The translations under genes were made by a program, and so were the position numbers. A model generated the notes under the pieces. The model saw only the letters and a list, made by a program, of their open reading frames with translations, ran no database searches and had not been told where the DNA came from. A stretch of 64,000 nt of DNA from an uncultured Alphaproteobacteria bacterium (GTDB lineage: Bacteria; Pseudomonadota; Alphaproteobacteria; HIMB59; GCA-002718135). The DNA lies in NCBI GenBank assembly GCA_902602515.1, contig CACKRG010000003.1:62001-126000 (forward strand). Reading direction: 5' to 3'. Shown in pieces: positions 3,719 to 64,000 of the stretch. How positions within the stretch are numbered: position 1 is the stretch's first letter; each line of letters begins with the position of its first letter.

Positions 3719-4903
3719 ATGCAACTTTCTTTTAGATGGTATGGTCCAAACGATCCTGTGAGTTTGTCAGATATAAGGCAATCAAATGCTGAATATGTTG
3801 TAACTTCTTTACATCAAATACCTACTGGTGAAAAATGGACACAATCTAAGATAAAAGAAAGAGTTAATTTAATTAAAAGACAGAATTCTAAATTAAATAT
3901 TAACTTAAAATGGAATGTTGTAGAAAGTATACCAGTACACAATAATATAAAACTAAGAGAAAAAAATTTTAAAAAATTAATAAATAATTATAAAGATACC
4001 ATTTCTAATATTGCAAAGAATAAAATTTACACAGTATGTTATAATTTTATGCCTATAGTTGATTGGACGAGAACGCAATTAGATTTTAAACTTTCAACTG
4101 ATGGGTTGGCATTAAGATTTAATTACCTGCATATAATAATTTTTGAAAAATATATTCTTAAACTAAAAAATCTTGAACGAAGATATACTTCAAAACAAAT
4201 AATAAGTGCTGAGAAACTATTTAAAAAAATGAAATTAAAGGAGTTAAATGATTTAAAATATGCAGTTATGGGAGGTTTACCAGCTGCAGAAAAGAAGTAT
4301 TCAATAAAAGAATTCAAAGAAATGTTATTAGCTTATAAAGATTTTAAGGATGAAGATTTAAGAAATAATTTAAAATATTTTTTAAAAGAAATTATTCCAG
4401 TTGCTGAAGAAAACAAAATTAAAATGGCTCTTCATCCTGATGATCCACCTTTACCTCTATTTGGCGTTCCAAGAATTGTGTCAAGTTTAGAGGATTATAA
4501 AAGCATTTTAAATTCATATAATTCACATTCAAATGGAGTTACGTTTTGTGCTGGATCACTCGCATCTAATATAAAAAATGATGTTTATGAAATTTTTAAA
4601 AATTTGAGAAAAAAAATTAATTTTATACACTTAAGAAATGTAAAAATAGAAAGTGATAGGAGAAGTTTTTTTGAAACTAATCATTTAAGTGGTAATATTG
4701 ATTTTGTTAAGCTAATTAAATTAATAACTGAAGAGGAAAAAAATAGATATAAAAATAAGCAGTTTCATATACCAATGAGACCAGATCATGGTCATTGCCT
4801 ATTAGATGATCAAAAAAAGAAAAATATTAATCCTGGATATACTGCAATAGGAAGAATGATGGGTCTCGCAGAAATTAGAGGTATAATCAAATCTATTAAG
4901 TAA
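3719..4903 (+). CDS. uxuA: Mannonate dehydratase UxuA
   Basis: UxuA removes water from D-mannonate to give 2-keto-3-deoxygluconate in hexuronate breakdown. The protein is 394 aa, the family length. It shows the opening 'FRWYGPNDPVSL', the metal-site region ALHPDDPPLPLFG, LRNVK around residue 305, and the C-terminal MRPDHGH followed by NPGYTAIGRMMGLAEIRG. It follows the ureohydrolase closely on the plus strand and is convergent with the ComDE-like pair. No uxuB, uxaC or KDG kinase is present in this window, so the rest of the path must lie elsewhere. Confidence 0.93.
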   Translation: MQLSFRWYGPNDPVSLSDIRQSNAEYVVTSLHQIPTGEKWTQSKIKERVNLIKRQNSKLNINLKWNVVESIPVHNNIKLREKNFKKLINNYKDTISNIAKNKIYTVCYNFMPIVDWTRTQLDFKLSTDGLALRFNYLHIIIFEKYILKLKNLERRYTSKQIISAEKLFKKMKLKELNDLKYAVMGGLPAAEKKYSIKEFKEMLLAYKDFKDEDLRNNLKYFLKEIIPVAEENKIKMALHPDDPPLPLFGVPRIVSSLEDYKSILNSYNSHSNGVTFCAGSLASNIKNDVYEIFKNLRKKINFIHLRNVKIESDRRSFFETNHLSGNIDFVKLIKLITEEEKNRYKNKQFHIPMRPDHGHCLLDDQKKKNINPGYTAIGRMMGLAEIRGIIKSIK

Positions 4904-58930: not shown

Positions 58931-59377
58931 ATGAGAATTGCTCTATTTGAACCTGACATACCGCAAAATGCTGGAAATATATTTAGATTAGGTGCGTGTC
59001 TAGGAATACCAGTAGATATAATAGAACCAGCTGGCTTTGCAATTGATGATAAAAGACTGAAAAGAGCTTCAATGGATTATTATAATTACCTAGAATTAAA
59101 AAAACATTTAAGTTGGGAAAAATTTTATGAATGGTCACAGGATAATTCATATCGACTAATTCTTCTAACAACAAAAAGTAAAAAAAGTTATTTTGATTAT
59201 AAATTTCAATCAAATGATATTATTTTATTTGGCAGAGAAAGTGCAGGAGCACCTGATTTTGTCCATAGCTCTGTCGATGAAAGATTAACAATACCAATGA
59301 TAAAGGGGCCTAGATCGATTAATCTTAGTAGTTCAGTTGCAATAGTAACTGGTGAAATGTTACGCCAATTAAATTAA
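58931..59377 (+). CDS. trmL: tRNA (cytidine(34)-2'-O)-methyltransferase TrmL
   Basis: A SPOUT methyltransferase of 148 aa that 2'-O-methylates the wobble base of certain leucine tRNAs. It has the short TrmL start IALFEPDIPQNAGNIFR, FGRESAGAPDFV and the knot motif RSINLSSSVAIVTGEMLRQ. It is divergent from petA and convergent with the pirin gene. Confidence 0.93.
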   Translation: MRIALFEPDIPQNAGNIFRLGACLGIPVDIIEPAGFAIDDKRLKRASMDYYNYLELKKHLSWEKFYEWSQDNSYRLILLTTKSKKSYFDYKFQSNDIILFGRESAGAPDFVHSSVDERLTIPMIKGPRSINLSSSVAIVTGEMLRQLN

Positions 59378-60231
59378 GCTAAGCTTCCCATTTTTCCTTC
59401 TTGATAGTCCATCATTGCTTGCTTGATTTCACCTTCAGAATTAGCCACAAAAGGACCATAACGTGCAACAGGTTCTTTAAGTGGCTTACCTGCTAAAACT
59501 AGGTAGGATCCTTTTTCTGATATTGATGTAAGTTGAATCTCATCACTTGACTGATCAAAGTAAATCATATCACCTTTATTAGCGATTTTATCTTCCTCAT
59601 TAAACTGCAACTGACCATCAATAATATAGATCATAAGATTTTGTTCTTTATCAACATTAAACTTTGTCATATCTGGTTTTGAAAATTGAATATCAAATAT
59701 TGATACAGGTGAATATGTTTGAACTTTGGATTTGGTTCCATTTATTTCTCCCACAAGAACTTTAATTTCTATATTTGCATTTTCAGATATTGTTGGAATA
59801 GTGTTTCTTTTAATATGTTGGTACCAAGGTTTAACTTTTTTATTTTTTTGTGGAAGGTTCACCCAAATTTGTAATCCTTGCATGACACCTCCACTCTTCT
59901 TAAATTTTTCTGTTACTAACTCAGAATGGATTAAACCTGATCCAGTTGTCATCCATTGTACATCACCAGTTTCAATTTTTGCTTGTCCGCCAAATGAGTC
60001 TCTGTGTTCTACCTCACCACCAAGCATATAAGTAATTGCCTCAAATCCACAATGAGGATGTGCTGGTACACCAGTTGCCCCTCCCGGTTCATAATTAATT
60101 GGGCCGAAATGATCAAAAAGAAGAAATGGATCATTTTCTCTCATACCAGGGACAGGGAAAGCTCTCGTTACAGGTATCCCGTCACCCTCGAAAGTCTTCA
60201 TACACTCTTTAATTTCTAATGCTTTTCTCAT
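59374..60231 (-). CDS. Pirin-family cupin protein
   Basis: A two-domain cupin of 285 aa. The metal-binding motif is HPHCGFEAITYMLGGEVEHRD (residues about 57-77), with LIHSELV nearby, and the pirin C-terminal part ends with GKPLKEPVARYGPFVANS. Pirins may act as quercetin dioxygenases or as transcriptional co-regulators; the bacterial role is generally unknown. It overlaps trmL by 4 nt on the opposite strand. Confidence 0.92.
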   Translation of the reverse strand: MRKALEIKECMKTFEGDGIPVTRAFPVPGMRENDPFLLFDHFGPINYEPGGATGVPAHPHCGFEAITYMLGGEVEHRDSFGGQAKIETGDVQWMTTGSGLIHSELVTEKFKKSGGVMQGLQIWVNLPQKNKKVKPWYQHIKRNTIPTISENANIEIKVLVGEINGTKSKVQTYSPVSIFDIQFSKPDMTKFNVDKEQNLMIYIIDGQLQFNEEDKIANKGDMIYFDQSSDEIQLTSISEKGSYLVLAGKPLKEPVARYGPFVANSEGEIKQAMMDYQEGKMGSLA

Positions 60232-60271
60232 TTGTATTTTAAATTATTATAAAAAATATATAGGTATGATT

Positions 60272-60355
60272 ATGAAAAATCAAAATCCAAACCCACCAAA
60301 GTGTGGTTGCAGCTGCAGCTGTTGTTGCACTTGTGAAGGTGGAGATTGCTGTTAA
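60272..60355 (+). CDS. Cysteine-rich 27-residue peptide, metallothionein-like
   Basis: The plus strand contains a short ORF, too short for the track. It starts MKNQNPNPPK, followed by CGCSCSCCCT and CEGGDCC: nine cysteines in 17 residues, in CxC, CC and CxCxC patterns. An AGG at 60262-60264 lies 7 nt before the ATG. It sits in the intergenic space between the pirin gene and the zinc/CobW cluster. The cysteine density suggests a metal-binding peptide. It resembles no family that I can name with confidence; a chance ORF with this composition in AT-rich DNA is unlikely. Confidence 0.6.
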   Translation: MKNQNPNPPKCGCSCSCCCTCEGGDCC

Positions 60356-60422: not shown

Positions 60423-60830
60423 CTATTTTAAATTAATAATAATATCTGACTTACTATTTATTGGAGGAAATCTACCAACGATATTAGATCTATATATTTC
60501 AGGTCTATGTCTACGTCTCAAAAAACCATCATCAGATTTGCTATAGGATAATAGCAGTTCCTCTATTGAATCAATATAAGCAGAATTTTCAGGATCTATA
60601 TCTCCAAACACATAGGTAAAACAATTTTCTGCGGTAAAGGATACAATACATGAACGTTTACAATTACTCATGCAATTTACACCTCTTAAAGTTACATTTT
60701 TTGTATTTTTAAATTTATCAATTAATTTTTGTGCAAGTTTTTCTCCTGCAAGTTTATTATTATTTTGAGCTTTATTAAGGGTACATGTGAGACAAACAGA
60801 TAATATTATTTCTTTTTGTTTTTTTGACAT
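60423..60830 (-). CDS. DUF1636-family metal-binding protein
   Basis: A 135-aa protein with a thioredoxin-like ferredoxin layout: cysteines in SVCLTCT (residues about 12-16) and NCMSNCKRSCIVSF (about 53-66), then GDIDPENSA and a C-terminal RRRHRPE stretch. DUF1636 proteins are often found next to CobW GTPases and zinc or cobalt transport genes, as here. It is the last gene in the znuA, cobW, WD40, CHEPDCPP, DUF1636 run. Confidence 0.8.
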   Translation of the reverse strand: MSKKQKEIILSVCLTCTLNKAQNNNKLAGEKLAQKLIDKFKNTKNVTLRGVNCMSNCKRSCIVSFTAENCFTYVFGDIDPENSAYIDSIEELLLSYSKSDDGFLRRRHRPEIYRSNIVGRFPPINSKSDIIINLK

Positions 60831-60851: not shown

Positions 60852-61106
60852 CTAATGGGTGTGGTTTGTTAGATTATTAATATCTGACTCCTCTATTTCT
60901 TCTATTGATTTTGCAACTCGCCAATTTTTCATTGATCCGTCTTCATTTCTTGCAGTAATTACAGTTTCGATTGGTGGACAATCAGGCTCATGACAACTGA
61001 GCTCAGCAATACTTATTATAGTATTTTCTGGTAATTTATATTTCTTGGAAATTAAATGTTTAAGATTTCTTATTTTTTCAACATTTTGAGTTTTACGATT
61101 AAACAT
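60852..61106 (-). CDS. Small conserved protein with CHEPDCPP motif
   Basis: An 84-residue protein between the WD40 and DUF1636 genes. It has SIAELSCHEPDCPPIETVI, two cysteines and a histidine within seven residues, a likely metal site, and a basic helix at the start. Related proteins appear next to CobW in other alphaproteobacteria, sometimes labelled nitrate reductase without clear reason. A role in zinc handling is inferred from position. Confidence 0.65.
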   Translation of the reverse strand: MFNRKTQNVEKIRNLKHLISKKYKLPENTIISIAELSCHEPDCPPIETVITARNEDGSMKNWRVAKSIEEIEESDINNLTNHTH

Positions 61107-61116
61107 ATTTTCTCCT

Positions 61117-62154
61117 TTAATTGTCTGCCCATAAAGATGATAAAAGAATAGAACCTTTCATATCCCCAATTAATATTTGTGAATTATCACTAGATATCGC
61201 TATTGTTGAAACTTCCGAACCTGTTGAACTTCTAATCATAATTGGTTTTTTACTTTCATCAATTTCTGCTAATAAAACTGACCCATCTGTAAAACCGGTG
61301 AAAACAGCTTTTTCTCCATTTAGTGCTTTAACAAATGTTGCAAGTTCTTTACCACCGTTTGCAACAACAATTGGCTTTCTCCCCATTGGTCCTTCTTTAC
61401 CATCAAATGGCCAGCAAACTGCATCACTGGATCCAGATGTTACCAAATACGGTGTATCACCAACCCAAGTAAAACTTTTAATTTTTGATGGATAACCTCT
61501 CATTGCTAAATCAGCTTTGTCGTTTATGCGCCAACCATGAATTTGATTTTCTTGCATTGCAGTTACAATATATTTTGTATCAGGGCTAAACGTTACAGTT
61601 CCATGCGATCCTTTCCATGTAAAATTTGATGCTGTCCATTTATTATTATTAAGTTTCCACACTGTTACTCCACCGTATCTTGAGACCGCAAGACGCTTGC
61701 CTTTATTATCAAATGCTAATCCAGCAACAGTACTTTGATGCTCTAAAGTTTGTGGTTTATCTTTGTTTTTTGTCCAAATATAAACAGTCTTTCCTGATGA
61801 ACAAACTTTAGTATCTTTGTGGGAAGCTACACAGTCAACCCACTTTGAACCAAAATTAAAAATTTCATCAATATTTCCATCAGATGATATTTTTAGAAAA
61901 CGTCCATCTTCTCCTCCCGTTAACACATGATCTTCATAATTTGTCATACTCAACACTACACCCTTATGTGCTTTAACAGTTTTAGGATCAGATCCAGATT
62001 GAAAAAATCTTACAGTACCGTCTCCAAATCCTACCGCTATTTGATCACGAATTGTAACCGCTTCTGTAGCTGGGGCTCCAATATTAAAAATTGAACCTCT
62101 TCTTTCAAGTTCAGTTTTATTTGATTCTTGAAGTGTTTTTAAATCAGCGTTCAT
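61117..62154 (-). CDS. WD40 repeat protein
   Basis: A 345-aa protein with about seven beta-propeller repeats. Repeat-like segments include DQIAVGFGDGTVRFF, LTGGEDGRFLKIS, KRLAVSRYGGVTVWKL and SQILIGDMKGSILL. There is no signal peptide, so it is probably cytoplasmic and a scaffold. It overlaps the CobW stop by 4 nt and begins with a start codon in the ATGA overlap, so it is translationally coupled to CobW, suggesting that it works with this metallochaperone. Confidence 0.85.
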   Translation of the reverse strand: MNADLKTLQESNKTELERRGSIFNIGAPATEAVTIRDQIAVGFGDGTVRFFQSGSDPKTVKAHKGVVLSMTNYEDHVLTGGEDGRFLKISSDGNIDEIFNFGSKWVDCVASHKDTKVCSSGKTVYIWTKNKDKPQTLEHQSTVAGLAFDNKGKRLAVSRYGGVTVWKLNNNKWTASNFTWKGSHGTVTFSPDTKYIVTAMQENQIHGWRINDKADLAMRGYPSKIKSFTWVGDTPYLVTSGSSDAVCWPFDGKEGPMGRKPIVVANGGKELATFVKALNGEKAVFTGFTDGSVLLAEIDESKKPIMIRSSTGSEVSTIAISSDNSQILIGDMKGSILLSSLWADN

Positions 62155-63122
62155 GCTGATTTACAATTATCAAAGCCTTCCTTAAGATTCATATTATCAA
62201 GATCACGACCAATAAATACTACTCGAGAACTTCTATCTTTTCCTTTAGGCCAAGGTCCCATTGGTGAAGCATCCATGAGCATGTGTACTCCTTGAAATAC
62301 ATATCGCTCTTCTTCACCTTTAAAGTTCAAAATTCCTTTTGATCGAAGTATGTCCTGACCCTTAGTCCTGAGTAAATTTCCAAACCAATCTTGGAACTTA
62401 TCCATATCTAATGGTGTATCAGATACAAAGGATAGACTAGTAACATCATCATCATGTTCATGATCATGATCTGATTCAAGAAAGTCAGGTTCAATATCTA
62501 ATACTCTATCTAGACTAAATGCATTTAAGCCTACGATTTCATCAAGAGGTGCATCACAACGTGTTGTTTTAATAATCTTAGCAAAAGGATTAATTTTTCT
62601 AATACGATCATTAACTTTTACAATGTCATTATCTTCAACAAGTTCAACTTTATTTAACAAAATTACATCAGCAAAAGCAATTTGTTCTTCTGCTTCATGA
62701 TGATCGACTAATTGAGAACTTAGATGAACAGCATCGGCAACTGTAACAATTGCATCTAATTTTGTTCTATCAGCAACATCTTGATCAACAAAAAATGTCT
62801 GAGCAACTGGGGCTGGATCTGCTAAACCAGTTGTCTCAACTATAATTGCATCAAGCTTATCAGCACGTTTCATTAAGCCACTTAGAATTCTAATTAAATC
62901 ACCTCTAACAGTGCAACAAATGCACCCGTTGTTCATTTCAAATACTTCTTCATCAGCATCAACAACAAGATCATTGTCGATACCTTGTTCACCAAATTCA
63001 TTAACAATGACAGCGTATTTCCGTCCATGCTGTTCAGTTAAAATTCGATTTAAAAGAGTTGTTTTTCCAGCTCCAAGAAACCCTGTTAAAACAGTAACTG
63101 GAACCTGAGAAGTATTTTCCAT
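62151..63122 (-). CDS. CobW/ZigA-type GTPase metallochaperone (COG0523)
   Basis: A 323-aa G3E GTPase with the P-loop GFLGAGKTTLLN, the metal-binding CxCC motif in NGCICCTVRGDL (about residues 65-76), ETTGLADPAPV and the guanine-binding NKVEL. A histidine/aspartate stretch DHDHEHDDD lies between the two domains, and a CobW C-terminal domain ends the protein. With znuA upstream it belongs to the Zur/zinc-limitation group rather than to cobalamin synthesis. Confidence 0.93.
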   Translation of the reverse strand: MENTSQVPVTVLTGFLGAGKTTLLNRILTEQHGRKYAVIVNEFGEQGIDNDLVVDADEEVFEMNNGCICCTVRGDLIRILSGLMKRADKLDAIIVETTGLADPAPVAQTFFVDQDVADRTKLDAIVTVADAVHLSSQLVDHHEAEEQIAFADVILLNKVELVEDNDIVKVNDRIRKINPFAKIIKTTRCDAPLDEIVGLNAFSLDRVLDIEPDFLESDHDHEHDDDVTSLSFVSDTPLDMDKFQDWFGNLLRTKGQDILRSKGILNFKGEEERYVFQGVHMLMDASPMGPWPKGKDRSSRVVFIGRDLDNMNLKEGFDNCKSA

Positions 63123-63148
63123 ATCAATTTCCTTATAATTAGTTTTAT

Positions 63149-63177
63149 AAATTCCACCTTAATACAAGGTGGAATTT
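63149..63177 (-). terminator. Stem-loop behind the znuA gene
   Basis: A perfect 12-bp stem (AAATTCCACCTT with AAGGTGGAATTT) with a 5-nt loop, located 16 nt past the znuA stop and before cobW. The minus-strand sequence after the stem is ATAAAAC, without a long T-run, so 3'-end stabilisation or weak termination is more likely than full termination. Confidence 0.65.
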
Positions 63178-63193
63178 ATTTAAATATTAAAAT

Positions 63194-64000
63194 TTAACAG
63201 CCTTTAAGCTCGTTCCCGAGATTACTAATCAACGTAAAGTAAAGTGACTTACCAGCATCAATGTTAGCACCTAAAGGATCAAAAACTCCTGTTTTGATAT
63301 TCATATCCTCAGCTATTGTTGTAATAATCTTTGGATTAAATTGAGGTTCAGAGAAAATACATTTTATTCCCTTATCCTTAATAACATCCTGAATATCAGC
63401 TATTTGCTTCGCACCAGGTAAAACATCAGTATTCAATGTTAATGCTCCTGCTGCTCTTACACCAAATCTTTCTTCAAAGTATTGGTAGGCGTCATGGAAG
63501 ACAACAAATTTTGCATCAGAATTAATATCTGTACCAACATCACTAATAAGCTGATCTAAAGCTTTAATTGTTGCTTCAGCATTTGCTTCATATTTCTCTT
63601 TATTGGCAGGATCTAAATCACCTAACTCATGAGCTATTTCATGAACCATTTCTTTAGCATTCATTGGATCTAGCCAAATGTGAGCATCAAATTCACCGTG
63701 TGCATGGCCGTGATCATCGTGGTCATCATGATCATCGTGATCATCGTGGTCATCGTGGTCGTCGTGATCGTCATGGTCACCAAAAATTGATTCTTCTCTA
63801 AATTTTAATTTAGCAATTGAATCAAGTTCCATAAATTCAATTACTTCTGCATCTTTTGCAATTGTGTCTAGAGGTTCTTCCATTGATGTTTCAATACCCT
63901 CTCCAATCCAAAAAATGACATCTGCTTCTTCAAGCATTTTCGCATGAGAAGGTTTCATTGTAAAACTGTGTGGTGATATACTTCCATCGATTATGAGTCC
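63194..64000 (-). CDS. znuA: Zinc ABC transporter substrate-binding protein ZnuA, 5' end cut by window
   Basis: The frame is open past the track's start at 63958 to the window edge, adding 14 residues (GLIIDGSISPHSFT) that match the ZnuA 'D..SPH.F' region, so the first methionine in the track is internal. Other landmarks are KPSHAKMLEEADVIFWIG, HIWLDPMNAKEM, VFHDAYQYFEERF and IFSEPQFNPK. A long loop made of HDD repeats and HGHAHGEFDAH lies after the first lobe; such histidine-rich loops bind extra zinc. The signal peptide and first ~30 residues lie outside. Confidence 0.93.
   Translation of the reverse strand, partial: GLIIDGSISPHSFTMKPSHAKMLEEADVIFWIGEGIETSMEEPLDTIAKDAEVIEFMELDSIAKLKFREESIFGDHDDHDDHDDHDDHDDHDDHDDHGHAHGEFDAHIWLDPMNAKEMVHEIAHELGDLDPANKEKYEANAEATIKALDQLISDVGTDINSDAKFVVFHDAYQYFEERFGVRAAGALTLNTDVLPGAKQIADIQDVIKDKGIKCIFSEPQFNPKIITTIAEDMNIKTGVFDPLGANIDAGKSLYFTLISNLGNELKGC
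63700..63778 (-). repeat. znuA: Tandem 9-bp codon repeat in znuA encoding HDD units
   Basis: The minus strand contains about seven to eight imperfect repeats of a 9-nt unit (CAY GAY GAY class) that encode His-Asp-Asp. Third-position changes between copies suggest an old and partly diverged array under protein-level selection. Copy number could vary between strains by slippage. Confidence 0.75.

Follow-up and report, generated by a model that had tools for sequence, protein, structure and literature searches.

A Conserved 27-Residue, Nine-Cysteine Peptide of Marine Alphaproteobacteria as a Candidate Miniature Metallothionein

Introduction

What is encoded by a frame of only 84 bp in which one residue in three is a cysteine? 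The question is raised by a small open reading frame (sORF) in the window, by which we mean the whole 64,000-nucleotide stretch of alphaproteobacterial DNA analysed here. Such a gene comes close to the length cut-off of common gene callers or falls short of it, and the peptide is covered by neither a Pfam nor an NCBIfam model; similar peptides may therefore be overlooked elsewhere. A previous inspection of the letters alone (the sequence-only reading) had offered two ideas, a miniature metallothionein (MT) and a metal-sensing leader peptide. Both have precedents. Among the MTs, the family 8 fungal Cu-thioneins of Neurospora crassa and Agaricus bisporus have 26 residues with CxC motifs and form a single small cluster (PMC4755600), while polycysteine sORFs of mycobacteria act as cysteine-responsive attenuators, according to Canestrari et al. 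2020 as cited in PMC9094748. Here we ask whether the sORF is a gene and what its product may do.

Results and Discussion

Translation of positions 60272–60355 of the plus strand gives the peptide MKNQNPNPPKCGCSCSCCCTCEGGDCC followed by a stop codon. Nine of the 27 residues are cysteines, arranged as C-G-C-S-C-S-C-C-C-T-C...C-C (CxCxCxCCCxC...CC) behind a Cys-free N-terminus of Pro and Asn, and Phe, Trp, Tyr and His are absent. Upon re-reading the sequence, we found the previously given coordinates, strand, length and cysteine number all to be correct. An in-frame ATG at 60266 would add two residues, but relatives have I, V, E or K at this upstream position, and because this ATG is not kept we place the start at 60272, where one relative's copy begins with GTG. 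The AGG that had been noticed in front of the frame is indeed present in the window (60262–60264, plus strand, 7 nt before the ATG) and is a possible Shine-Dalgarno element; it is found in the copies that adjoin a pirin gene only, and is missing from those next to MurJ and from those of the sister family.

Because the frame is short and the genome AT-rich (GC 30.2%), one may suspect a chance frame or a non-coding feature. The cysteine content speaks against this. Among the 260 ATG-started ORFs of 20–45 aa in the window, the runner-up has five cysteines, and in 100 random sequences of the same length (first-order Markov/dinucleotide) the short ORFs reached seven at most, never nine. More decisive is the conservation. 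We denote the family of the window genome f1, one genus within it g1, and the sister family f2. The peptide was detected in 74 of 110 f1 genomes, every carrier belonging to g1, and 36 f1 copies encode a 100% identical peptide. A profile search furnished a diverged homologue in 33 f2 genomes, which locus inspection gave as MDNNKPKPDCGCSCSCCCTCGDGCCQ, and three further f2 genomes (L324, L326, L327) contain a Ser-to-Pro version, CGCSCPCCCTC, so that 36 f2 genomes carry the gene in total. With nine cysteines among 26 residues, the f2 peptide retains the MT-like size, cysteine share and motifs. All nine cysteines align between the families, the f2 peptide being one residue shorter between the seventh and the eighth.

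The substitution pattern, calculated from the non-identical sequences (30 of f1 and 17 of f2), is that of a protein. We obtained pN/pS values of 0.065 for f1 and 0.041 for f2, and the variable columns at codon positions 1/2/3 number 8/6/24 and 1/3/21, respectively, so that changes at the third position dominate (24 of 38 and 21 of 25). Both TGT and TGC are used at eight invariant Cys columns in f1 and at six in f2. The two serines of the core are encoded by AGY codons in f1 and by TCN codons in f2; such a switch takes at least two base changes, and the residue is nonetheless retained. Most other columns vary, while the Cys columns show a single change, C11F in G073. In two copies the end is damaged, with a frameshift in G006 and an altered C-terminus in G020, perhaps as a result of single-cell assembly errors. 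A second match in G060 read through in-frame stops and was dropped. These data show that the frame, its start and the nine cysteines are under strong purifying selection. The absence of such conservation in close relatives had been named beforehand as the outcome that would speak against a gene; we find the opposite, with frame and cysteines both strongly kept. The sORF is thus almost certainly a real, selected coding gene, and the probability that we are dealing with a chance or non-coding feature is negligible. Since oligotrophic ocean bacteria with streamlined genomes retain few genes, a separate 84-bp gene under strong purifying selection is telling.

The distribution is narrow. Outside the order, 385 genomes of the class gave only weak partial matches (best E 0.004, within a longer frame), and in 399 genomes of the phylum the window's own copy was the only match to pass E 0.001. 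When genome and viral contig collections were scanned with the DNA pattern of the core, the true copies among the matches listed came only from marine alphaproteobacterial assemblies, including the isolates AG-893-E11 and AG-917-M08; the remaining listed matches were mostly low-complexity Cys-rich frames. The lineage most probably belongs to the HIMB59/AEGEAN-169 order, whose description in PMC10308909 agrees with marine single-cell genomes of ~1.4 Mb and a GC content of 30.2%. Pfam, searched with 14 members at E values up to 10, returned no match, NCBIfam and the PDB sequences none for the peptide, and Rfam no element between 58000 and 64000. Metallothionein families and structures likewise gave no sequence match. 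Judged by these searches, the nine-Cys peptide family matches no known protein family; the metallothionein-like kind itself is already known. Within its own range the gene can be lost. The near-complete f2 genome G110 (one 1.41-Mb contig) gave no peptide match, and in G008 and G002, both of g1, the znuA–murJ junction is empty, from which we conclude that the peptide is dispensable.

What may the peptide do? It shares the general features of a metallothionein: it is small, about one third Cys, rich in CxC and CC motifs and, in the window, free of aromatic residues. The proposal of a miniature metallothionein thus remains the best hypothesis on account of size, cysteines and motifs, while it finds no backing from a family match. 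We consider it rather likely that this stand-alone gene encodes a cytoplasmic, miniature metallothionein-like peptide which binds metal as a buffer. In such a peptide the nine thiolates that follow the Cys-free Pro/Asn N-terminus would wrap one small metal cluster, comparable in size to a nine-Cys M(II)3 or a Cu(I)4-6 cluster, and would thereby buffer or store zinc or copper, which may both be considered as the metal. A modification enzyme or a partner would not be needed.

Known metallothioneins offer parallels for such a cluster. The SmtA/BmtA-type bacterial MTs, to which the Pseudomonas MTs belong, are also small and Cys-rich, and the MT of P. fluorescens Q2-87 likewise has nine cysteines, which form a Zn3Cys9His cluster (PMC7387436). 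The present peptide differs from this type: it has 27 residues, all of its variants lack His, neither Pfam nor NCBIfam gives a match, and no SmtB-like regulator was recognised adjoining its gene. With the curated profile match and the His ligand both absent, we rejected membership in the SmtA/BmtA family. The family 8 fungal Cu-thioneins are equal in size class and also have CxC motifs, but this is a resemblance across kingdoms with no detectable homology. Their pattern, X2-[CXC]-X5-[CXC]-X3-[CXC]-X2-C-X3, holds seven cysteines (PMC4755600), whereas the present peptide has nine with a CCC and a CC; membership was rejected here as well, since spacing and number differ. Finally, the fungal-IV MT of Yarrowia lipolytica has a CCC motif and a Cys-free N-terminal segment as found here, and engages all of its cysteines in a Cu4Cys8-9 cluster (PMC13107397). 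It is, however, longer and eukaryotic, and we draw on it as a parallel without claiming homology.

A cysteine-dependent role without metal storage, for example as an oxidant buffer, as part of an assembly factor or in another thiol-redox function, would also explain why conservation centres on the cysteines. We regard it as unlikely, because the CxC and CCC spacing and the lack of hydrophobic or aromatic residues would fit a metal-thiolate cluster better than a fold with buried disulfides. If the peptide does bind metal, it would rank among the smallest bacterial metallothioneins and would give an abundant marine group a so far unlisted part for intracellular metal buffering. The further-reaching picture, to which we give somewhat less than an even chance, would be an apparently lineage-restricted family that counts among the smallest bacterial metallothioneins, has no relation to SmtA/BmtA or MymT, provides streamlined ocean bacteria with a minimal store of zinc or copper and in one genus lies stably beside zinc import and CobW.

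The genomic context allows further alternatives to be weighed. In the window, the left neighbour is a pirin gene (59374–60231, minus strand; PF02678, 2.6e-30), which adjoins the sORF as previously stated, starting 40 bp upstream on the opposite strand. To the right follows a convergent gene for a DUF1636 protein (60423–60830, minus strand; PF07845, 6.2e-26). Wherever we examined its surroundings in f1 and f2, the sORF has a divergent gene upstream and a convergent one downstream, and is hence, by orientation, a stand-alone transcription unit. This arrangement contradicts the idea of a metal-sensing leader peptide, for which no co-directional gene lies downstream in these contexts. The mycobacterial polycysteine sORFs, which lend this idea its appeal as likewise short and Cys-rich attenuators responsive to cysteine (Canestrari et al. 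2020, as cited in PMC9094748), precede the gene under their control, whereas the present sORF is followed by a gene on the opposite strand. Additionally, some copies have a terminator-like hairpin of their own. In the MurJ–gene–ZnuA copies the last codons and the following TTCCACCTTTTT are predicted to fold into a hairpin (-23.3 kcal/mol, z -4.7) that looks like an intrinsic terminator and, overlapping the last codons, would end rather than lead an operon. The window copy is without this hairpin (z 0.32) and retains the peptide, so it is the peptide and not the RNA that is conserved. Conservation of the whole peptide, including the Pro/Asn N-terminus, also exceeds what a stalling Cys run would need. 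That translation of the sORF controls a downstream operon in response to cysteine or metal is therefore extremely improbable. In L053 (~4090–4150) and at the equivalent places of L049 and L051, the last sORF codons are the 5' arm of the terminator-like hairpin beside ZnuA, and a D25G variant (GAT to GGG) accompanies the direct sORF–ZnuA junction.

The layout of the peptide, in which a short N-terminal part free of Cys precedes a Cys-rich C-terminal part, is also reminiscent of a precursor that is processed to a RiPP or a secreted metallophore. Yet the recognised neighbours in f1 and f2 include no radical SAM, cyclodehydratase, DUF692 or lanthionine enzyme and no peptide exporter, and the neighbourhoods differ between the two families, which makes such a precursor quite improbable.

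The zinc locus deserves a closer look. Beyond the DUF1636 gene the minus strand encodes a zinc module composed of an 84-aa protein that is conserved in context (60852–61106), a WD40 protein (61117–62154), a CobW/COG0523 GTPase (62151–63122; PF02492, 8.3e-59) and ZnuA (63194–64000, with its start beyond the window end), after which divergent znuC, znuB and zur follow outside the window. CobW and ZnuA thus lie ~1.8 kb and ~2.8 kb downstream of the sORF, with the DUF1636, 84-aa and WD40 genes in between. Across f1, one subclade has pirin on the left and another has MurJ–TrpS there, and the right neighbour is DUF1636, the 84-aa ORF or ZnuA directly; many relatives have no DUF1636 beside the peptide gene. 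The gene of g1 nevertheless remains beside the zinc locus although both flanks differ. These loci are inherited from one another and do not therefore represent many independent observations. In f2 the gene is flanked on one side by a methyltransferase or other gene (c24) and on the other by a locus with a proteasome-type protease and CP-ATP-grasp, and in the f2 genomes G112 and G113 ZnuABC–Zur is located on other contigs than the peptide gene. Outside the window, the znuA–znuC interval contains a Zur-like palindrome, GTGTAATGTTATAATATTACAT, while inside the window no Zur box was found at up to three mismatches; membership of the gene in the Zur regulon was rejected on this basis. The location beside a zinc cluster, as the sequence-only reading had it, thus holds for g1 and fails for f2, where the surroundings are unrelated and ZnuABC–Zur is elsewhere in the genome. 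Because the f2 gene is away from ZnuABC–Zur and the window has no Zur box, the zinc association is local evidence only and weaker than it looks. For g1, the neighbouring locus hints at zinc as the metal.

The same evidence bears on a more specific role, in which the thiolate peptide gives zinc to, or takes it from, the CobW/DUF1636/ZnuA–Zur system. The persistence of the zinc locus alongside the g1 gene, while the neighbours on both sides change, would suit such a partner. On the other hand, the f2 gene is elsewhere despite the presence of ZnuABC–Zur, several loci (L049, L051, L053–L056, L060) have the peptide without the CobW/DUF1636 module, and no Zur box is near the gene. We consider this role rather doubtful, and a metallothionein-like buffer remains the reading that we prefer.

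Some minor observations concern the junctions and the neighbours. In L323 (4600–4720; G000:C3, window ~63100–63220) the cobW–znuA gap contains a hairpin, AATTCCACCTTAATACAAGGTGGAATT, after znuA, in which the words TTCCACCTT and AAGGTGGA recur from the sORF/znuA terminator of other genomes. These shared words suggest that the CobW module may have been inserted at the sORF/znuA junction. The empty junctions of G008 and G002 do not contain the inverted repeat ATTTAGT-N8-ACTAAAT, which is located ~100 bp upstream of the sORF in the MurJ-type loci L052, L053, L054 and L060 and is imperfect in L053. The 84-aa ORF (60852–61106) has no Pfam or NCBIfam match and carries a CHEPDCPP motif. ZnuA contains a long His/Asp (HDD) repeat, the length of which differs greatly among relatives.
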